A stretch of DNA of 23,731 nucleotides, from positions 1 to 23,731 of IMG/VR virus record IMGVR_UViG_3300047564_000944; one strand, 5' to 3'. Both the position numbers and the translations under genes were made by a program. The stretch comes from a virus. Under the pieces are notes generated by a model. That model was not told the origin of the DNA. It did no database searches and was given only the letters and a program-made list of their open reading frames with translations. Of this stretch, positions 3,080 through 23,569 are shown piece by piece. Within the stretch, counting starts at the first letter, position 1; every line of letters starts with the position of its first letter.

Positions 3080-3301
3080 GTGGAACCGCAATTCCTGATC
3101 AACATTCTTTTTGCTGCCGCCGGAGCCGCTTTTGGGTGGATACTCAACAGTATCTCTCGCTCAATCGTTCGGATAGAGGACAGAATTGCGGAAATGCCCA
3201 TGATGTATGTCAACCGTGAGGATTACCGGGAAGACATCCACGACATCAAAGGCATGTTGGGCAAAATCTTTGATCGTTTAGAAACTAAGGCTGACAGATG
3301 A
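3080..3301 (+). CDS. Small single-pass membrane protein with coiled-coil tail
   Basis: A 73-residue protein starting at GTG, with GGAG eight bases upstream. Residues 5-26 (FLINILFAAAGAAFGWILNS) form one hydrophobic helix rich in small residues, followed by an amphipathic, charged helix that includes NREDYREDIHDIKGMLGKIF. It looks like an inner-membrane anchored protein with a cytoplasmic or periplasmic coiled coil. Similar small proteins sit beside tail fibre genes or in lysis regions of many phages, where they are usually annotated only as hypothetical. Its last four bases overlap the start of the next gene (ATGA). Its position at the head of the ACP-ketosynthase block could mean a membrane tether for that block, but this is speculation. 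Confidence 0.65.
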   Translation: MEPQFLINILFAAAGAAFGWILNSISRSIVRIEDRIAEMPMMYVNREDYREDIHDIKGMLGKIFDRLETKADR

Positions 3302-3645
3302 GCCTGAATATGGATGCGCTGGCTACCCCGATATTTGGGGAGCCAGATAGCCTCCGTGACTTTCTCTTTGAAAATGGCATACAGCATCAAGTCTTTTGGG
3401 AAAGACTGACTGACGCTGGCTTTTACGTTCCACGCTACCCCATCACTGATGCTGATCCGCAGGACTTGGATGATTGGCTACTAATCCATCAACAAGAACA
3501 CCAACGCTACGCATCAATTCTTAACCTTAACGACCCCTTTAATCTGCTAGACTTGGATTTCAACCAAGAGGATGACTTTTACGATTGGGTAAATAGTCAT
3601 TTGTTAATTCATGAGCAGATAGCACGTACACTGGGGGTGACATGA
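3298..3645 (+). CDS. Acidic protein with duplicated DWxxxHxxxH helix, unknown function
   Basis: A 115-residue acidic protein overlapping both neighbours by four bases (ATGA), so probably translationally coupled to the ACP gene that follows. I see an internal duplication: DWLLIHQQEHQRYASILNL (residues about 62-80) and DWVNSHLLIHEQIARTLGV (about 97-115). Both copies share Asp-Trp, His at +6, His at +10, Ala at +14 and Leu at +17. Regularly spaced His and acidic residues on a helix could bind a metal or simply pack a helical hairpin. I do not recognise the family. Its tight coupling with an acyl carrier protein is the best clue to function. Confidence 0.7.
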   Translation: MSLNMDALATPIFGEPDSLRDFLFENGIQHQVFWERLTDAGFYVPRYPITDADPQDLDDWLLIHQQEHQRYASILNLNDPFNLLDLDFNQEDDFYDWVNSHLLIHEQIARTLGVT

Positions 3646-3935
3646 TTTCTGATGAGGATTTTTACCGTTTATTTAATGCGGCTGCTGCTGCTGCCAAGCC
3701 TTATGGAAAACCAGCAATTCCAGCTACTAGCATGGAAGATCGGTTTGAGAACCTTGAGATAGATAGTCTGGATGGCTTGATTATGGGCATGTATCTTTGC
3801 GATGCTTTTGCCGTGTCTGAGGCCGAAGGAAAAGACATGAAGCCTGAAACGGTAGGTGACATGCGAGATTTTCTAGTAAAACACGCAAGAGTTAGTAAAA
3901 TTGATATAGAAAAAGCCATTGAGGTGATGAAATGA
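3642..3935 (+). CDS. Acyl carrier protein-like
   Basis: A 97-residue acidic, helical protein. The segment FENLEIDSLDGLIMGMYLCD (residues 35-54) contains the DSL motif in which Ser42 would receive the 4'-phosphopantetheine arm; the hydrophobic pattern after it matches helix II of acyl carrier proteins. PETVGDMRDFL (about 68-78) matches the conserved helix III/IV stretch TVGD-x-x-D/E-h. It is longer than the usual 77-80 residues, mainly from an N-terminal Ala-rich extension and an insert after helix II. The gene starts at an ATGA overlap and ends in another overlap with the ketosynthase gene, which strongly supports functional pairing. It would need a phosphopantetheinyl transferase; none is visible here, so the host AcpS would be used (inference). 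Confidence 0.85.
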   Translation: MISDEDFYRLFNAAAAAAKPYGKPAIPATSMEDRFENLEIDSLDGLIMGMYLCDAFAVSEAEGKDMKPETVGDMRDFLVKHARVSKIDIEKAIEVMK

Positions 3936-5056
3936 GTCTGTTTCTTACCTTTGGTCATACTGTATCTACAACTCAAACGACCTTGATGGAAGACATTGTG
4001 CATCCACAACGGACGCACTTCATTCCTGAAAGCTATCAAGGCACCAAGCACGGCTACAAATACGCACCGCATAACCTTGCCAACATGGTCTTGGCACCCG
4101 CCACGTTGGAGTGGCTGCGACAAAACCCGGCACTGGGCAAAACTGCATTTATCTTGGCTTCTGGCAACAGTCACTTTGCTGGCATCAATCCAAGAGACAA
4201 TCAAACGAATACGCAACTGCACTACATCTACAAGTTTTTGCCTTTTTCCTTAACGCAAGTAATGGCTGGCAGACTAGCAAACCAGATATGTGAGCCAGAT
4301 TACATTGCTACCGACGCTACCGCTTGCGCGTCCAGCTTAAAAACGCTTATGGACTGCATCATGCTGGAAGCCTTTGGCTATACCCGTTTTATTATCCTAA
4401 CCGTTGAGGATGCCGTCTCTAACTCCGTATTAGAGTTCTTTGGCGATTCTAAAGCTAGCCTGACACTAAAGGAAGAAGGCGACGGAAACGTGCTGCCCAG
4501 TGCGTTTGATCGTAAAAATGGGGGGTTTTACGTCGGGCAAGGCGCTGCTTTTGCCGTCTTGCAATCTGAAGGCGAGGTGAACTTCTACAACCTAAAGCCT
4601 AAAGCCAGATTGGTCAGCGCTTACCATGCTGCCGAAAAGCATACAAACGCCATTGGTCAACGAGAAGATGGTCAGGGCTACATCAAGGCTATTGAAGGTG
4701 CCATATTGTACGGCGATGTCCATGCTGATGATATTTCCATAGTAAAAACACATGGCACCGGTACCGAGTCAAACAATGAGTCAGAGGCAATGGCGCTTTA
4801 CAAGACATTAAATAACTTTATAGCAACATCATTTAAACCAAAAATAGGTCACACAATGGGCGCTTCGGGCTTGCTTGAAACGCTACTTTTGCTTGACAAT
4901 CTAGTTTATGGTGTTGTACCTGCTATCCCTAACCGCACGGAAAAGGACGATGTTTTTCTGTCGCAGGATTGTGAGGTACCCGATGGTTTAATAATGAGTC
5001 TCGCGGCAGGTATGGGCAATGTTTATACCGCTGCGATCTTTGATCCCGTGAGGTAA
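3932..5056 (+). CDS. Beta-ketoacyl-ACP synthase (FabF/FabB-like condensing enzyme)
   Basis: A 374-residue thiolase-fold condensing enzyme. Key residues are present: nucleophile Cys132 in DATACASSLK, His274 in KTHGTGTES, and Lys302/His307 in SFKPKIGHTMGASG, in the order and spacing of FabF-type synthases. The segment PSAFDRKNGGFYVGQGAAF (about 189-207) matches the family's RPFD-x-x-R-x-G-F-h-x-GEGA block. It is about 40 residues shorter than E. coli FabF, chiefly at the N-terminus, and the usual C-terminal N-S-FGFGG loop is replaced by SLAAGMGN, so substrate gating may differ. Cys at the active site argues against a chain-length-factor-like inactive partner. A GAGGTGA site lies just before the ATG, which overlaps the ACP stop. 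The reaction would be decarboxylative condensation of malonyl-ACP with an acyl chain, on the adjacent ACP. Confidence 0.9.
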   Translation: MSLFLTFGHTVSTTQTTLMEDIVHPQRTHFIPESYQGTKHGYKYAPHNLANMVLAPATLEWLRQNPALGKTAFILASGNSHFAGINPRDNQTNTQLHYIYKFLPFSLTQVMAGRLANQICEPDYIATDATACASSLKTLMDCIMLEAFGYTRFIILTVEDAVSNSVLEFFGDSKASLTLKEEGDGNVLPSAFDRKNGGFYVGQGAAFAVLQSEGEVNFYNLKPKARLVSAYHAAEKHTNAIGQREDGQGYIKAIEGAILYGDVHADDISIVKTHGTGTESNNESEAMALYKTLNNFIATSFKPKIGHTMGASGLLETLLLLDNLVYGVVPAIPNRTEKDDVFLSQDCEVPDGLIMSLAAGMGNVYTAAIFDPVR

Positions 5057-5058
5057 AA

Positions 5059-5511
5059 ATGGCGAAGATGGTGGACAGCCGAGAGCAAGAGTTGAGTGCA
5101 GAGGACATTGTTGCCATTGCAGCCATGAACACTGATGCTGGCGTTGATCGCAGTAAAGCGATTCAGATGATCAATGCCGAACTCAAAATGGATGATACCT
5201 TGTTCATACGTCAAGGTAACACACTTTTTATTCTTCACAAGTCGGCACCAAGAATCGGTTGGTTCCGCGCTTTGAATGCTGACACTGCTGCAAACTTCTT
5301 GCAAAACGGTATTGAGTTTATCAAGGCTGCTTACAAAATGGGTTTTGATACGGTAGCTTCTACTTTCAACGATCCGGCAATTATTGCTGTTTTCCGCTAC
5401 ATCTCAAATAACCCGCCCAATCCTGAAATGGGATACGAACTTGAAGAAATGGATGATGGTTCGTTTATGGCGACTGTAAAAACGGGGCCATCTCGCGGAG
5501 GTGAAGCATGA
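5059..5511 (+). CDS. Putative GNAT-fold acyltransferase-like protein
   Basis: A 150-residue protein two bases after the ketosynthase stop, with GAGG before the ATG. The middle has a strand pair (DDTLFIRQGNTLFILHKS), then a long helix (TAANFLQNGIEFIKAAYKMG), a strand (FDTVASTFND), a helix (AIIAVFRYISNN) and the ending MGYELEEMDDGSFMATVKTG. This order, ending in the G-Y-x-x-E-x-x-DG-x-h strand pair, looks like the second half of a GNAT acyltransferase fold. The acetyl-CoA loop (Q/R-x-x-G-x-G/A) is not obvious, so activity is doubtful. Phages often carry such a gene ahead of internal virion proteins. Next to an ACP and a ketosynthase it could move an acyl chain to protein, but an inert structural role is equally possible. 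Confidence 0.45.
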   Translation: MAKMVDSREQELSAEDIVAIAAMNTDAGVDRSKAIQMINAELKMDDTLFIRQGNTLFILHKSAPRIGWFRALNADTAANFLQNGIEFIKAAYKMGFDTVASTFNDPAIIAVFRYISNNPPNPEMGYELEEMDDGSFMATVKTGPSRGGEA

Positions 5512-7247
5512 GCGCTGTTGTCGAGTTTGTTCAAGATGTTGGCAAAGCCGTTGGCAATGTAGTTGAGGCAGTTGGCGATGCCGTTGAAAAGGTCGGTGAG
5601 GTTATTGTTGATACCGTCAAATACGTTGCCGAAAACCCCGAGATTATTGTTATAGCGGTTGCCGCGCCCTATGCCATAGCTGCTGCTGGCGCTGCCGTAG
5701 GCGCTTCTGCGGCAACAATTTCATTGGTAACACAACCAATTACTGCGGCTGCTATTAGCGCATCCCAAGGCGGTGATCTTGAAGACATTGGTAAGGCAGC
5801 ATTAGGCGCTTACATTGCCCCAAGCATTGCTCGCCCCGTAGCTGCTGCAACAGGTAGTGCGATTGGTACAGGTTCGGCGGCACAAGTTGCTTTGGCAAAT
5901 GCCGTGGGTGGCGCTGTTGGTTCTGCTGCGGGTGCTGCGGCAGTAGGTACTGATATTGGTGAGGCAGCATTGTTAGGTGCTGCTGGTTCTGCTGGCGCAT
6001 CGTTGGCACGTTCTGGCGCTGCTGAGTTAGGCATTGATGAAACAGGCAAAGCGGCAGGCTTTACCGCAGACATTGGCGAAGCTATTGCTAGAGGCTCAAT
6101 AACTGGAGACATTGGTGGCGAGCTTGTTGGTGCTGGTATTGGCGCTCTAGCAGGTGAGGGACAGCAAGCATTGCGCGAGCTAACCACTCCGACCATTAAA
6201 AATGCAACCGCTTATTACCCGCCTATTTCCCCTGAAATGGCTGCATTAACTGGATCAACCATTGATGGCTCACCAGTTACCGACGTTCCTTTAGTTGAAG
6301 GGTCACCAAAATCAGCGCTAATGTTTCCTGAAGGCGACATGGTTGTTTCTTCCAACGCAAAAACAGGAAGTATTTACACTGTTAAAAACGAGCAAGGAGA
6401 AACATTCCAAGCGCGTGACGTAACTTATCAGGATGGCACGGTTAAACGAATTATTTTTGATCCTAATACACAGCAATATCAACAGCAAGTTTTAAAGCAA
6501 CCGTCTATTGATGCTGGTGGGGATCGCTCTTTGCCGGGAATAACTGTTGAGGCAGAAAGGTTTACTGCCGGAGAAGATGCTCGTACAGGTCGAGTAACTG
6601 ATATTGCAAAAGCAGCGACCGGCGGCAGAGAAACTACCGCACCCGCAGGTGGAGCTGCTACCGCACCCGCAGGTGGAGCTGCTACCGCACCAACACCCCC
6701 TGCTGGCCCAGAAACAGGTGGCACTACGGCGGGTGACAGAGGTGAAGGTGAAATGGTTGGCGATGGTGAGCGCGAGATGGCAGGTGGCACTCGCCCCGTT
6801 GAGGATATGACTGGCAACGAACTGCTTGGCGATGCAATGGCTGGCGAGGAAGGCGGCGCACCAAGAGAAGGTGGTGGTGGCGGTAGGGGTGCCGGTGAAG
6901 GTGGCGGTGGTGGCGAAGGATTGGCAGAGCAACCGGCTGATCTTGAGGCAATGACGGATGAAGAACTGTTGGCATTGCTGGAAGACTCAATGGACTTTGA
7001 CGTTGAAGAAACGCCATTAGTTCCTCCTGATGATATTGGTGAGTTCCAACCATTGGATGCAAGAACCGCAGGTGGTAGCCGTCGTGGTACGCCGTATCAA
7101 AGTTCTATTAGCGCACGGGCTGTTGGCTCAAGCCCAACGGCAGCGATTGTTGGTAATAAAGAACCCATTTTTGGTGGCGATGAAGGCGTACAAAGTGAGG
7201 CGTGGAACACCCGTTCTTTACGTCTTAGAAAGGCATTGGGAATCTAA
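5508..7247 (+). CDS. Large Ala/Gly-rich virion protein with glycine-zipper helices (ejection-type)
   Basis: A 579-residue protein with an excellent GGAGGTG site before the ATG. The N-terminal 30 residues are an amphipathic Val-Gly-Glu helix (VVEFVQDVGKAVGNVVEAVG). Residues about 40-230 contain Ala/Gly-rich hydrophobic stretches with G-x-x-x-G spacing (GAAVGASAAT, AVGGAVGSAAGAAAVG), typical of proteins that insert in membranes during DNA ejection. After a globular part (230-370) comes a low-complexity linker of Thr-Ala-Pro and Gly runs (about 380-490), an acidic stretch (MTDEELLALLEDSMDFDVEE) and a basic end. It opens the series of four large proteins, comparable in place to T7 gp14-gp16, but no sequence identity to them is claimed. 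Confidence 0.65.
   Translation: MSAVVEFVQDVGKAVGNVVEAVGDAVEKVGEVIVDTVKYVAENPEIIVIAVAAPYAIAAAGAAVGASAATISLVTQPITAAAISASQGGDLEDIGKAALGAYIAPSIARPVAAATGSAIGTGSAAQVALANAVGGAVGSAAGAAAVGTDIGEAALLGAAGSAGASLARSGAAELGIDETGKAAGFTADIGEAIARGSITGDIGGELVGAGIGALAGEGQQALRELTTPTIKNATAYYPPISPEMAALTGSTIDGSPVTDVPLVEGSPKSALMFPEGDMVVSSNAKTGSIYTVKNEQGETFQARDVTYQDGTVKRIIFDPNTQQYQQQVLKQPSIDAGGDRSLPGITVEAERFTAGEDARTGRVTDIAKAATGGRETTAPAGGAATAPAGGAATAPTPPAGPETGGTTAGDRGEGEMVGDGEREMAGGTRPVEDMTGNELLGDAMAGEEGGAPREGGGGGRGAGEGGGGGEGLAEQPADLEAMTDEELLALLEDSMDFDVEETPLVPPDDIGEFQPLDARTAGGSRRGTPYQSSISARAVGSSPTAAIVGNKEPIFGGDEGVQSEAWNTRSLRLRKALGI
6635..6690. repeat. 24-bp in-frame tandem repeat, 2.3 copies
   Basis: Two perfect 24-base units start at 6635 and 6659 (each begins TACCGCACCCGCAGG), then an 8-base partial unit at 6683. 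Each unit encodes an eight-residue Thr-Ala-Pro-Ala-Gly-Gly-Ala-Ala block in the flexible linker of the surrounding virion protein. Identical codons in both units point to recent slippage. Confidence 0.9.
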
Positions 7248-14213: not shown

Positions 14214-14627
14214 ATGCCATTTGGACTGGACGCGCTGCTAGGCATTGGCGGCAAGTTAATCGACAAACTAATCCCTGACCCTGAACAAAAGGCAAAGGCG
14301 CAGCTAGAGCTGGCTAAGATGGCTCAAGATGGTGAGCTTGCCAAGATGGCAAACGACACTGAGCTATACAAAGCAGAGCAAGATAATCTGACTTTACGCC
14401 AACAAGCTGACATGGCTAGTGACAGTTGGCTCTCCAAGAACATCCGTCCTATTACGCTAATCTATATTCTTGTTGCTTACCTTGTGTTGGCAATTCTTGA
14501 TGCTGCCTTGATTGACATAGCCGATTCCTTTGTGGAACTTCTTGGTCAATGGGGAATGTTGGTTATGTCCTTTTACTTTGGTGGTAGGACGCTTGAGAAG
14601 ATTATTGATATGAAGGCAAAGAAATGA
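14214..14627 (+). CDS. Holin, 3TM / GTA-holin-like family
   Basis: A 137-residue protein with the best ribosome site in the block (AAGGAGG, five bases before ATG). It begins MPFGLDALLGIGGKLIDKLI, then IPDPEQKAKAQLELAKM and an acidic helix, then SDSWLSKNIRPITLIYILVA, the signature of the holin family called 3TM (GTA holin). Two hydrophobic helices are clear at about 79-101 and 108-124; the N-terminal amphipathic helix may be the third. It would make lesions in the inner membrane and release the endolysin encoded four bases of overlap downstream. Confidence 0.85.
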   Translation: MPFGLDALLGIGGKLIDKLIPDPEQKAKAQLELAKMAQDGELAKMANDTELYKAEQDNLTLRQQADMASDSWLSKNIRPITLIYILVAYLVLAILDAALIDIADSFVELLGQWGMLVMSFYFGGRTLEKIIDMKAKK

Positions 14628-15043
14628 TTAACTCTCGCAAAATTGAAGATTTGCTTCCGGTCGTGCAAGAGAAGGTTCGCAAGTTCAAAGCCTTGTGTGA
14701 AGAAAATGACATCGACCTGCTAATTACATCAACTTACCGTGACCATGAAAGCCAGAATGCTTTGTATGCTCAAGGTCGCACTGCGCCCGGCAACAAGGTA
14801 ACGAATGCCAAGGGTGGTCAAAGCTGGCATAACTGGCGCTGTGCTATTGATGTGGTTCCATTGATTAACGGCAAGCCTTGCTGGGATACTAAAAATCCTG
14901 TGTGGCAAAAGGTTGGCGCATTAGGTAAAGAGGCTGGTCTGGAGTGGGCTTGGGAGTGGAAGACATTTAAAGAGATGGCGCACTTCCAGTACACGGGTGG
15001 CATGACCTTGGCTCAGTTGCAAAGTGGTGAGCAAATTGCCTAA
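14624..15043 (+). CDS. Endolysin, M15-family L-alanyl-D-glutamate / D-Ala-type peptidase
   Basis: A 139-residue zinc peptidase. ITSTYRDHESQNALYAQGRT (about residues 34-53) matches the start of the VanY/M15 fold, and the zinc ligands are His69 and Asp76 in SWHNWRCAIDV and His120 in MAHFQYTGG; Glu117 is in the place of the usual catalytic acid. It lacks a signal peptide or membrane segment, so it depends on the overlapping upstream holin to reach peptidoglycan. Length matches T5-type endolysins (about 137 residues). It cuts the peptide stem of Gram-negative peptidoglycan. Confidence 0.9.
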   Translation: MINSRKIEDLLPVVQEKVRKFKALCEENDIDLLITSTYRDHESQNALYAQGRTAPGNKVTNAKGGQSWHNWRCAIDVVPLINGKPCWDTKNPVWQKVGALGKEAGLEWAWEWKTFKEMAHFQYTGGMTLAQLQSGEQIA

Positions 15044-15299: not shown

Positions 15300-15865
15300 C
15301 AGACAAAGACATTATGGATGCCGTAGCGCAGGACGTTGACCCTCGCCTATTGGATAAGGCAAGGGAAGAATATCCTGTGCTACGCAATGTTGATGTTGAC
15401 TATAAGTATTCACCGAAGCAAGACATTGAGAAGTACGGCAAGCTAGAGTTTTTTCCTTCCGATGAGCCGGGTTCTCCAGAGCGCCCCCGCCCCAAAGAAT
15501 TTCCAGTTGGCAGACCGCTTGTCGAAGTTTACGACCCAAAGACTAGGCCAATAGATATTCTTGGCGACATTGCAAGTCACTACATGATTGAGCAAGACCC
15601 AAGAGTGCAGGGCTACTACAACCAGTTTCAAAAGTCTTTGTTGCCCGGTCAGTATGATCGCTTACGTGGTCAGTATCAGTTTGCCCAAAAAAATTATGGC
15701 GAAGATCGTCCTTACGAAGATTGGTATGAGCGCACTGGATTGCCCGGTTACTTCCGTGGATACCCATTCCAGCAATGGCCTGAAGAATTTAATGAGATGG
15801 CTTATACGCCAGAGCAGCGCCAGTTACTTGATGAGATGATGCAATACTTTCGGACAGGCGAATGA
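15290..15865 (+). CDS. Acidic protein with FRGYPFQQW motif, unknown
   Basis: A 191-residue protein. ATG 15290 is chosen over ATG 15284 because GGAG at 15280-15283 lies six bases from the former and touches the latter. It is rich in Pro, Tyr, Asp and Glu. Notable segments are DILGDIASHYMIEQDPRVQG, then YEDWYERTGLPGYFRGYPFQ, which recur in phage hypothetical proteins. His in ASHYMIEQD could belong to an active site, but no metal-binding pattern is complete. It overlaps the methyltransferase gene by four bases. Confidence 0.65.
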   Translation: MPVADKDIMDAVAQDVDPRLLDKAREEYPVLRNVDVDYKYSPKQDIEKYGKLEFFPSDEPGSPERPRPKEFPVGRPLVEVYDPKTRPIDILGDIASHYMIEQDPRVQGYYNQFQKSLLPGQYDRLRGQYQFAQKNYGEDRPYEDWYERTGLPGYFRGYPFQQWPEEFNEMAYTPEQRQLLDEMMQYFRTGE

Positions 15866-16374
15866 GTCATCAGGCGCAGTTGGATTTTGTAGCAAGTTTG
15901 CGAGACAGGTTCCCAGACTTCTTCATTAGAAAGAATGTGCTGGAGGTGGGTAGCCTAAACATTAACGGTTCTATAAGACAGTTCTTTCAACAGTGCAACT
16001 ATGTTGGGGTTGATCTTGGCGCAGGACAGGATGTGGATGTCGTTGCCAAGGGCGAAGACTTATCCTATGGCGATGGTAGCTTTGATGTGGTCGCAAGTTG
16101 TGAATGCTTTGAACATAACCCTGAGTGGGCTAAGACGCTTCAAAACATGATCAGGATGGCTGGCAGCTTGGTCTTCTTTAGTTGCGCTACGACGGGAAGG
16201 CCGGAGCATGGCACAAGGCGTACAAGCCCACAGGATGCACCATTTTGCGGAGACTATTATCGCAACTTAACGGAAGACGATGTAAGGCAGGAAGTAGATT
16301 TATCGGCTTTTAAAGTCTATGAATTTATAAGCAATGATAAGGCTCACGACTTATACTTTTGGGGGATCAAATGA
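15862..16374 (+). CDS. SAM-dependent methyltransferase, type 11-like
   Basis: A 170-residue class I methyltransferase. Motif I is VLEVGSLNINGSIR (residues 26-39), the acidic ribose-binding residue follows at Asp51 in YVGVDLGAG, and motif IV-like FDVVASCECFEHN is at 74-86. The D-Y-Y-R-N-L segment near the end is common in phage versions. It lacks a DNA recognition domain or an N-P-P-Y/D-P-P-Y motif, so it is unlikely to be an adenine DNA methylase; the target may be a small molecule, a protein or a cell-surface group. It is in the late operon behind the lysis genes. Confidence 0.75.
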   Translation: MSHQAQLDFVASLRDRFPDFFIRKNVLEVGSLNINGSIRQFFQQCNYVGVDLGAGQDVDVVAKGEDLSYGDGSFDVVASCECFEHNPEWAKTLQNMIRMAGSLVFFSCATTGRPEHGTRRTSPQDAPFCGDYYRNLTEDDVRQEVDLSAFKVYEFISNDKAHDLYFWGIK

Positions 16375-16556: not shown

Positions 16557-16584
16557 CCCCGCCATGTCTCCGGCGGGGTTTTTT
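16557..16584 (+). terminator. Intrinsic terminator of the rightward late operon
   Basis: A perfect 7-bp GC stem, CCCCGCC (16557-16563) and GGCGGGG (16572-16578), with an 8-base loop, runs straight into six T. It follows the last + gene and abuts the stop of the leftward unit, so it separates the convergent operons. The T tract exists only for + transcription. Confidence 0.9.
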
Positions 16585-17311
16585 ATTCGCTAGACAATAG
16601 TCCACCCTCAAACAAATACGTTCCCATGTGACCCATTTGGCACCACGGGGCAGCGTAGATCGTGCCGCCAATCTTGCGCCACTCATGGCAGAAATAATAG
16701 TCCTCAGACAATAGCCGCTTAGTATCAGGATCAATAGGATCAAGGTAGAAAGCGTGTATCTCTTGCCCTGCAAGGTGTGTCATATCACTGACGTAAGTGG
16801 GCGTATGCGGCTTTAGCTTCTCAAAGACTTCCCGCTTAACCAACATAAAGCCCGTGCCAATACCAGACACCTCGCAAGGCTTATCCACTGGCACCGTCAT
16901 GGAAGGTTCGGCGTTCAACAGGTTGACCACAAAACTGCCGGTGTGGTTTCTCAGGTTCTCTTTGCCTTCTACCGCTGCCCGCTTAACGGTTTCCCAATTT
17001 ATTTCTTTCTTTGGATAGATTCCGCCTATCACATCTACATCAGCCTCAAGCATTCTCAAGGCATCCTCTGCGCGGAACTTAATGTCAGCGTCAATCCAGA
17101 ACAGGTAGTCTGCATCGCCCTGCAAGAACTGGTGCGCCATATTGCACCGTGCGCGGGTAATCAAGGATTCATTGAACATGAAGGCGCAGGAAGTCTTATA
17201 GCCTTTGCTGCCCAATACGCCGATTAGATTGATCAATGACTGCACGTACACGCCAGTGCATTGCCCGCCATACATAGGTGTTGCGATAAATATATGTTTT
17301 TGCTTGTCCAT
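16583..17311 (-). CDS. Glycosyltransferase, GT-A fold
   Basis: A 242-residue protein started at the ATG 17311 with GGAG five bases upstream; a longer in-frame start (17389) would run into the upstream gene and has no such site. IATPMYGGQCTGVYVQSL opens a nucleotide-sugar-binding Rossmann fold, and DYLFWIDADIKFRAEDAL carries the metal-binding D-x-D (Asp74, Asp76). VIGGIYPKK and GTGFMLVKREVFEKL match family blocks of GT2-like enzymes in phages, and SEDYYFCHEWRK probably holds the catalytic acid. The acceptor is unknown: modified DNA bases, a virion protein or host envelope are all possible. It is the last gene of the leftward recombination unit. Confidence 0.75.
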   Translation of the reverse strand: MDKQKHIFIATPMYGGQCTGVYVQSLINLIGVLGSKGYKTSCAFMFNESLITRARCNMAHQFLQGDADYLFWIDADIKFRAEDALRMLEADVDVIGGIYPKKEINWETVKRAAVEGKENLRNHTGSFVVNLLNAEPSMTVPVDKPCEVSGIGTGFMLVKREVFEKLKPHTPTYVSDMTHLAGQEIHAFYLDPIDPDTKRLLSEDYYFCHEWRKIGGTIYAAPWCQMGHMGTYLFEGGLLSSE

Positions 17312-17326
17312 GTTATCTCCGAAAGT

Positions 17327-17354
17327 GGGGCGTGTTGCAGTAACGCTGCGCCCC
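17327..17354 (-). other. Stem-loop between nuclease and glycosyltransferase genes
   Basis: GGGGCG at 17327-17332 pairs with CGCCCC at 17349-17354; inside the loop GTT at 17334-17336 can pair AAC at 17342-17344. It lies in the gap upstream of the glycosyltransferase. There is no T run, so it is more likely an mRNA processing or stabilising hairpin than a terminator. This is a weak call. Confidence 0.35.
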
Positions 17355-17363
17355 GCAACGCTC

Positions 17364-17723
17364 CTAACTATCCTCGGGAGAGGATTCATCCTGCAACTGA
17401 TGGGGGTCTAGTTCATTACCAAGAAGCGTCAACAGATCGGAGAAGCGCAACAAGGCCAGCGATTTGCCGCCATCCTCGCGCATGACAACCAGCGGTATTT
17501 GTCCTGCTTCACAGGCTTTCTCTGCCTGTTCCACGAAATCATACACGGCTATCTTGCGTCTGCGTTTGCATTCAATGAGATATTTCCCCAAGATCAGATC
17601 GCCCTCATCCTTGACCTGATACTGCTTTAGGTTGCGGCGAATACGAATGCCTAGCTTGTCAAAAATCTCATTGGCTACTTCACGCTCGTAGCTTGCGCCC
17701 CTCTGTCTGTTGAGCTTACTCAT
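17364..17723 (-). CDS. PD-(D/E)XK nuclease, Holliday-junction-resolvase-like
   Basis: A 119-residue protein with the order of active residues expected for the fold: Glu15 in SYEREVANEIF, Asp42 in KDEGDLIL and Glu51-x-Lys53 in YLIECKRRR. The opening S-K-L-N-R-Q-R-G-A-S-Y-E-R-E resembles phage Holliday junction resolvases and small restriction-endonuclease-like nucleases. It probably cuts branched DNA made by the exonuclease-annealing system upstream in the same operon. Its ATG shares one base with the stop of the cysteine-rich peptide gene (TGATG). Confidence 0.75.
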   Translation of the reverse strand: MSKLNRQRGASYEREVANEIFDKLGIRIRRNLKQYQVKDEGDLILGKYLIECKRRRKIAVYDFVEQAEKACEAGQIPLVVMREDGGKSLALLRFSDLLTLLGNELDPHQLQDESSPEDS

Positions 17724-19209: not shown

Positions 19210-20103
19210 TCACTTCAAAAGGAATCGACGGGAACCCGGCTGTTCGACAATAAACTTGTCGTACATGTCAGGCATAGAACTGCGGAACAGGTCTTTGCTA
19301 AACGACTTGGTAGCTTTGCTGTTCTTCCAAGTAGCAAGGATTCGACCGTCATAAGTGGATAGCTGCCCTGCTTCCATCATGAAGCCCTGTATCTTGGCTG
19401 TTAGGGCATCTTCTTGTGCTTCTAAGGCTTTGCGCTGCTCTTTGATGATCTTCAGAGTGTCACAGGCTTGCTCTAGCTCTGCGTTGGCCCAGAGGCTTTG
19501 TCCGTTGTCTTCCTTGTAGATGATCTTGGCAGCATCTCCCATTGATTCAGGGTCAAAGTTTCTGGCCTTCACTCGCCCCCAGAACTGTGCCATTTCACGG
19601 GCGTGCATATCCCATTGTTCTTCAGAGAAAGACAGGGGATAGCCGCATATCTCTTGCCCACCAAAGCAGACAATCAGGATGACGTTAGGGATTTGATGCA
19701 CCAAGGATTCATGCAAGCACTGGACACGGTAGCCAACATCAACGTCTGTCGTGCCATCGTCACCATACTTCTTGCGCTGGTGAACACCTAAGTTCTTGAC
19801 CTCATAGAGCGTCTGCCCATCTTCTGAGATGTAATCAAAGTGGCTGGCAAGGAAGGTATGCTTAGGATGATGCAGACTATATGCTGCATCTTTGAACGGT
19901 AGTTCTTTGCGCCTTGCGTATTCGCGCATGATAGGTTCTTGCATAACAAGACCCATCTGCACTGCTTCAATGTCGGAAAGATCGTCTAAAGGTTTTGCGC
20001 CTACCTTTTCGGCATAGACCTCACCGGCTCTGCCTTCGACAAATCGACGCGCATCGTTAGACCATAGTGCGGTGTTCCGCACTTCCGGTGAAAAGTCACT
20101 CAT
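19210..20103 (-). CDS. YqaJ-type viral recombinase exonuclease
   Basis: A 297-residue PD-(D/E)XK exonuclease. Active residues line up as Glu56 in MQEPIMREY, Asp90 in ASHFDYI and Glu101-x-Lys103 in LYEVKNLG, followed by YRVQCLHESLVHQIPN, the Q-x-x-H/x-Q helix typical of the YqaJ/lambda-exo family. The C-terminus from about 220 is a coiled coil (KIIKEQRKALEAQEDALTAK) that may contact the annealing protein. It would resect DNA ends 5' to 3' for strand annealing. GAGGGG lies before the ATG. Confidence 0.85.
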   Translation of the reverse strand: MSDFSPEVRNTALWSNDARRFVEGRAGEVYAEKVGAKPLDDLSDIEAVQMGLVMQEPIMREYARRKELPFKDAAYSLHHPKHTFLASHFDYISEDGQTLYEVKNLGVHQRKKYGDDGTTDVDVGYRVQCLHESLVHQIPNVILIVCFGGQEICGYPLSFSEEQWDMHAREMAQFWGRVKARNFDPESMGDAAKIIYKEDNGQSLWANAELEQACDTLKIIKEQRKALEAQEDALTAKIQGFMMEAGQLSTYDGRILATWKNSKATKSFSKDLFRSSMPDMYDKFIVEQPGSRRFLLK

Positions 20104-22678: not shown

Positions 22679-23569
22679 TCACGCTGCTATTGCTTCGGTT
22701 ATTTGCTCTGATTCGTTGACACTGGTATTTGTCAAATAATCCATTGCTTGCTGCGCCTTTGCACTTGCTGACAAGATAAATTTCTTGTCGTTACGCAATG
22801 CTTTTAGCCACGATTCGATATATCCGGCGTGGCGCAAGTCTCCATCAATGCCGCAATGGGCGCAAAGCATAGCCGCGCCCAATTCGGCTACTAATTCCTC
22901 GAATGCGTATTCTTCAGAGCCGAATCGGGCCGGAGTGATTCTCTTTAGCCGTGAATCATGGCCTGAAGCATGTACGGATTCATGCAATAAAGTCGCATAA
23001 TAATTCTCACGAGAATCGAATGCCGCCATTGCTGGCATGACGATAGCGTCACTACTTGGCCGGAAATAGGCACTATCACCGGCATGCGTTAAGCCGCCAG
23101 AGAGATTCAGACGGGAAACAATGGCATCTGCTTGCTCGCAAGAATTCCAATCTACTTGTGGCGGCTCTGGCATGTCAGGCAGGTTTAATCCTTCGCATTG
23201 CTCTACATTGAAAACGTAGTAGTGCTTGATGAAAGCATAAGCACTGGTAACGGATTCGCCCTTATCGCCGATGGTTTCTTTGCGGTGAACATTCCAATAA
23301 ACAACTGGCGTTCCCTTCTGATCTGCTTTCACTGTACCGCCAAGGCCTTGTGCTTGTTTGAAGGTAACGTAGTGCGGTAAAGCATAGGGCTGCATGCCAA
23401 GCCAAAAGTGATTCACACCACGATATACAGTTCCAGAAGCCGGATTAAATGGCATGCCTTCGCCGGGCATGCCCTTCAAAGTGCGCCAAGGTTTTACCCA
23501 AGGCGTTGCGCCCTTTTCTAGTTCGGAAATAATGCGGTCAGTGATCAGTTGAGCAATGTCTACTTTCAT
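22679..23569 (-). CDS. ardC: ArdC-type antirestriction protein
   Basis: A 296-residue protein with AAGGGG six bases before the ATG. The N-terminal half matches the ArdC ssDNA-binding domain (DUF1738): DRIISELEKGATPWVKPW, FNPASGTVYRGVNHFWL, YVTFKQAQGLGGTVK and KGTPVVYWNV. The C-terminal half is a zinc metallopeptidase with His196-Glu197-x-x-His200 in LLHESVHASGH and a likely third ligand Glu229 in EELVAELGAA. ArdC-like proteins are known from plasmids and phages to protect incoming DNA from restriction. As the gene nearest the putative early promoter it is probably expressed first, consistent with early protection of the phage genome. Confidence 0.9.
   Translation of the reverse strand: MKVDIAQLITDRIISELEKGATPWVKPWRTLKGMPGEGMPFNPASGTVYRGVNHFWLGMQPYALPHYVTFKQAQGLGGTVKADQKGTPVVYWNVHRKETIGDKGESVTSAYAFIKHYYVFNVEQCEGLNLPDMPEPPQVDWNSCEQADAIVSRLNLSGGLTHAGDSAYFRPSSDAIVMPAMAAFDSRENYYATLLHESVHASGHDSRLKRITPARFGSEEYAFEELVAELGAAMLCAHCGIDGDLRHAGYIESWLKALRNDKKFILSASAKAQQAMDYLTNTSVNESEQITEAIAA

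Follow-up and report, generated by a model that had tools for sequence, protein, structure and literature searches.

A paired acyl carrier protein and ketosynthase form a phage-specific family in a large group of uncultured phages

The stretch of DNA analysed here, a 23.7-kb linear virus record (hereafter, the window), encodes an acyl carrier protein (ACP) and, directly after it, a beta-ketoacyl-ACP synthase (KS). These two genes form a phage-specific family belonging to a large group of uncultured phages, and sequence comparison indicates that the pair is inherited, moved or lost as one unit. Earlier listings of phage ACPs and viral fabF genes are mostly of single genes, while here a phage ACP and a KS are inherited together in more than 100 distinct sequences. 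Such joint inheritance, combined with an intact active site, makes it appear that these viruses are under selection for acyl-chain building. On balance, we lean towards considering the pair a single biosynthetic module of the NodF/NodE kind, which would channel part of the host's fatty-acid synthesis into an acyl-ACP specific to the phage; the product and its recipient are the least certain parts of this reading. If it is true, phages would steer host fatty-acid synthesis by means of an acyl carrier of their own, and what they make could be a new lipid, a signal or a virion modification.

Results

The ACP gene (97 aa, positions 3642..3935, + strand) and the KS gene (374 aa, 3932..5056, + strand) share an ATGA, i.e., they overlap by four bases (3932–3935). 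The sequence-only reading of this DNA had placed both reading frames, their overlap, Ser42 of the ACP and Cys132, His274, Lys302 and His307 of the KS correctly. A gene for a 115-aa protein (3298..3645, + strand) lies immediately upstream, its stop overlapping the ACP start by another four bases (3642–3645); it shows dN/dS of 0–0.03 against near relatives. Directly after the KS comes a gene for a 150-aa protein with a predicted GNAT acyltransferase fold (5059..5511, + strand), followed by a 579-aa gene (5508..7247, + strand), which begins a large block of presumed internal or ejection proteins. The latter gene had no match in Pfam or PHROGs, and its order is conserved in the phage record MW202545. 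Promoter and terminator signals near the locus were no commoner than expected by chance.

Several other genes of the window deserve a comment. Likely lysis genes lie at 14214–15043, where a GTA_holin_3TM match is followed by an M15 peptidase endolysin. At 22679–23569, there is an ArdC-type anti-restriction protein with a zincin-like peptidase domain (Pfam E 6e-30 and 8e-42). A possible Anp1-like glycosyltransferase, with a Pfam score under the cut-off, occupies 16583–17389 and is adjoined by a methyltransferase-like gene on the opposite strand (15862–16374).

The gene at 3642–3935 is, to judge from its sequence, an acyl carrier protein, with phosphopantetheine attachment predicted at Ser42 (codon 3765–3767), within the motif IDSLDG. 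Taken by itself, the window ACP is too divergent to match Pfam; many other members of its family, which extends down to 22% identity with the window ACP, match Pfam PP-binding or NCBIfam acyl_carrier. A profile built from 46 family members recovers solved ACPs from the PDB, aligned on DSLD (best E 5e-5), and also matches Escherichia coli AcpP (E 9e-6). Each of the 146 loci that were examined first has DS[LM]D at this site. The gene shows dN/dS of 0.08–0.14 against near relatives, and the long relatives carry one ACP per genome.

The KS belongs to the elongating beta-ketoacyl synthase superfamily (KAS I/II), and its sequence and modelled fold predict condensation activity. Ketoacyl-synt_C (PF02801) is matched at E 6.9e-14 (52.3 bits, exceeding the cut-off of 20.8), while the N-terminal domain (PF00109) reaches 16.2 bits, under its cut-off of 20.8. 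The best phmmer match in the PDB is a FabF-type enzyme (E 5.7e-18). In a fold comparison, the AlphaFold model (pLDDT 92) finds the solved structures of FabF, KasA and type II PKS ketosynthases, at E ~1e-22 and TM 0.7–0.8. Overall, the family assignments of the KS and the ACP stand far above chance. When the KS is aligned to E. coli FabF, every catalytic residue coincides, both Thr residues of HGTxT included; the codons lie at 4325–4327 (Cys132), 4751–4753 (His274), 4835–4837 (Lys302) and 4850–4852 (His307). In FabF, this Cys, His, Thr, Thr, Lys, His set is required for acyl transfer and malonyl decarboxylation, and it is invariant in all 172 distinct full-length phage sequences. The earlier description of a FabF-like synthase with a complete Cys-His-His/Lys site thus agrees with Pfam, phmmer, the fold and the whole family. 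Against near relatives, dN/dS of the KS is 0.04–0.07; together, the pair genes span 0.04–0.14, i.e., they are under purifying selection, although these values are rough for more distant pairs, where synonymous sites approach saturation. Taken together, the conserved catalytic residues, the purifying selection and the presence of a dedicated carrier speak for a functional condensation reaction on the phage ACP. As a prediction from sequence and fold, the acyl extension on ACP that had been proposed for the pair is supported.

Despite its FabF-like fold, the KS is far from FabF, FabB and NodE in sequence. Its score against the FabF equivalog model TIGR03150 is 85 bits, against a cut-off of 493.75, and the function of its PHROGs entry is listed as unknown. 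The phage enzymes do not have a part of the FabF N-terminus, and their C-terminal loop is altered. The gate Phe of the FabF GFGGTN loop is replaced by Met in 172/172 sequences (the loop being of the AGMGN type), NN follows HGTxT where the FabF motif contains Asp, and an acyl-pocket position held by Ile in FabF is Asn or Ser. All these departures could alter the substrate or the reaction; those at the N-terminus, the gate and the C-terminal loop suggest that fatty acyl groups may not be substrates of the KS. Among NCBIfam models, AmcF scores best with the window KS (E 3.2e-24, 85.6 bits); AmcF is a short KS itself (369 positions in the model), and this makes a non-fatty product a live alternative, in which a non-fatty starter would be extended just once, by C2, to give a signal or an inhibitor. 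The shortened KS and the Asn/Ser of the acyl pocket speak for such small-molecule synthesis. However, the AmcF score falls far below the cut-off of 325 and is barely ahead of that of FabF, and the genes next to the pair showed no AmcG-like partner and no adenylating or releasing enzyme. We find this alternative distinctly unlikely.

Scans of viral contigs, together with MW202545, yielded 278 loci with a KS match. These loci, among which contigs recur, came down to 172 full-length KS genes of distinct DNA sequence; the set includes the window, MW202545 and one contig from a metagenome-assembled genome (MAG). The records are metagenomic and mostly fragments, and the counts given here are of distinct sequences rather than of independent events. 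The ACP lies directly upstream of the KS in 172/172, usually at the same genomic place, a pattern that the sequence-only reading had proposed to look for in related phages; unmatched families, decayed sites or sporadic pairing, which would have spoken against that reading, were seen in none of the 172 distinct full-length copies. Within the family, neither gene was found without its partner at any locus with enough sequence.

Two conserved peptide patterns, which diverged copies could escape, were searched for in 84,980 genomes of bacterial and archaeal species; the matches came solely from phage-like contigs in two MAGs. Nearly all copies are viral and cellular genomes are almost empty of them, so a host or contaminant origin is rejected. 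One of the contigs, binned as Balneolaceae and probably a misbinned phage contig, carries the block of 115-aa, ACP, KS and GNAT genes (L146:9711-11578). The other, likewise phage-like and part of a MAG assigned to Sulfurospirillum, encodes a distant 300-aa ketosynthase with the conserved Cys and HGTGT and no adjoining ACP (L147:9392-10294); perhaps it represents a second phage KS lineage.

In 154 of the 172 copies, the pair resides in the virion operon ahead of the GNAT-fold gene, which follows the KS immediately in 153; one relative has a 218-aa ORF separating the two (L282:7100-7756). The remaining 18 copies have a helicase-like gene on one side and small genes on the other, in an operon of the replication type (the helicase and replication neighbours were read by eye). 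All 18 compose one clade (support 0.98). Such monophyly indicates that both genes moved together, in a relocation that probably happened once. In a close relative of the window, the pair has been deleted while the flanking genes are intact (L209:3012-3148): of the KS, a broken piece interrupted by three stops survives in the 137 bases between the flanks, and the 115-aa upstream gene is still present. The link to the virion operon put forward by the sequence-only reading hence stands as a description of the usual place, while strict linkage is ruled out by the copies in the replication operon. These copies and the L209 deletion also imply that a role in virion assembly is not required.

The loss in L209 might be taken to mean that the pair is a chance-acquired ordinary host gene, an assembly artefact or decaying cargo, and fabG-acpP-fabF sets have been reported in three Rhodobacteraceae prophage predictions (PMC8224337). 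We consider this highly improbable: the pair is confined to viral contigs and to the phage-like contigs in two MAGs, the KS is distant from cellular KSs, and both place and sequence are conserved across many contigs.

Sequence searches of the 150-aa neighbour (5059–5511) in Pfam, PHROGs and the PDB gave nothing useful. In its AlphaFold model (pLDDT 90), the structural elements follow each other as in GNATs; its PDB fold matches are GNAT acetyltransferases (E 4e-4, best TM 0.59, a likeness at fold level only), the third being the acyl-homoserine-lactone synthase TofI. In 52/52 members, helix 3 does not start with the Q/RxxGxG/A CoA-binding motif, three matches to which are located elsewhere. 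ApxIC, a GNAT-fold member of the acyl-ACP-dependent RtxC family, is likewise devoid of CoA-contacting elements (PMC8339906), and by analogy with it, the absence of the motif is suggestive of acyl-ACP use. From the model, we predict a GNAT fold for the 150-aa protein, which is a candidate user of acyl-ACP.

HlyC-type GNAT-fold enzymes use acyl-ACP to acylate protein lysine. It is tempting to suppose that the three genes act together, with the GNAT-fold neighbour transferring the chain built by the ACP and the KS to a virion or fibre protein. A GNAT fold without the CoA motif leaves room for such protein acylation, which the adjacency to the KS in 153/172 and the ApxIC-like lack of the motif favour. 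Moreover, two phages of the replication-operon clade, with a relocated pair, G005 (39.8 kb) and G031 (31 kb), have both the pair and, away from it, the GNAT-fold gene. However, 18 copies are in the replication operon, the GNAT-fold gene of L209 outlives the decayed pair, and the fold match is modest (TM <=0.59). The GNAT-fold gene is not established as a partner of the pair because it stays where the pair was lost or moved, and their co-occurrence may reflect only a shared phage lineage. Acylation of a virion or fibre protein, which the sequence-only reading had offered as an example, is thus possible through this neighbour and is not favoured, given the copies outside the virion operon; we regard the three-gene version as unlikely. 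A wider version, in which an acyl group made on the phage's own ACP would be put by an acyl-ACP-using GNAT-fold enzyme on a virion or host-envelope target, also seems rather doubtful to us. Nevertheless, if this wider version is true, it would reveal a hitherto undescribed kind of lipid-modification pathway in viruses.

In 18 long relatives, of which one is a complete genome, Pfam models for ACPS, FabD-type and FabG-type proteins matched nothing, while 10–13 of 14 control genomes were positive in these searches. The absence of ACPS-, FabD- and FabG-type genes rules out a complete phage fatty-acid pathway and implies that host enzymes are needed for phosphopantetheine and malonyl supply; the reduction steps, too, are probably carried out by host enzymes.

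The finding of only these two pathway genes in such searches might also fit a metabolic sink or brake, in which the pair traps phosphopantetheine, malonyl or acyl groups of the host, so that its fatty-acid synthesis falls and nothing useful is made; a KS binding acyl and malonyl groups could work in this way. Such a sink, however, would need neither a matched KS nor the full catalytic set, invariant in 172/172, and we give it little credence.

Discussion

We favour the biosynthetic module, in which the events might unfold as follows. Host AcpS would add phosphopantetheine to Ser42 of the phage ACP, and host FabD would provide malonyl units. The phage KS would then join an acyl starter to malonyl on the phage ACP, and host FabG/FabZ/FabI may reduce the condensation product. 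Finally, an acyltransferase, either a host enzyme or the GNAT-fold neighbour, would move the chain onto a lipid, an envelope sugar or a protein.

A known member of the family is MW202545.1 (phage ctpbd312, from the Manatee Spring metagenome), with a KS 56% identical to that of the window and with ACP and GNAT genes annotated as 'hypothetical'. The annotated KS start of this record (20124) lies 52 codons inside a conserved frame that begins with GTG at 19968 (L008:19968-21068), so the deposited protein does not include the conserved N-terminus. Phage-borne ACP or fabF genes are known as auxiliary metabolic genes (PMC8224337, PMC10152775, PMC12783922, PMC10653327); unlike the conserved pair, they are reported as single genes or as fabG-acpP-fabF sets in predicted prophages. 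An earlier account of a paired phage-specific ACP–KS family was not found in the literature searched, subscription journals and preprints lying mostly outside its scope.

Among cellular systems, FabF/FabB with AcpP share with the phage pair the KS fold, the catalytic residues and the ACP profile match to AcpP, while FabF and FabB are only 16–20% identical to the phage KS in the fold alignment. In cispentacin biosynthesis, AmcF and AmcG act on the ACP AmcB (PMC10698177). AmcF resembles the phage enzyme as a short KS working on a dedicated ACP; unlike it, AmcF forms a heterodimer with AmcG, and the phage KS scores far below the cut-off of the AmcF family.

Finally, NodF-NodE of rhizobia turn housekeeping fatty-acid synthesis towards special acyl chains, which are moved by an N-acyltransferase (PMC5080398, the text of which swaps the roles of NodF and NodE). 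On pSymA of S. meliloti, nodE was found by a fabF search, with the ACP gene nodF directly before it, that is, in the same adjacent ACP-then-KS layout as in the phages, and the gate residue of NodE is Met as well. Nevertheless, the phage KSs are shorter and form a separate, very long branch (100/99 support, with long branches), the phage ACP profile barely matches NodF (match probability 6.7%), and the phage system shows no relative of NodA. Orthology to NodE is thus unsupported. Overall, we see in NodF-NodE the nearest analogue in layout, a likeness of organisation rather than of descent.
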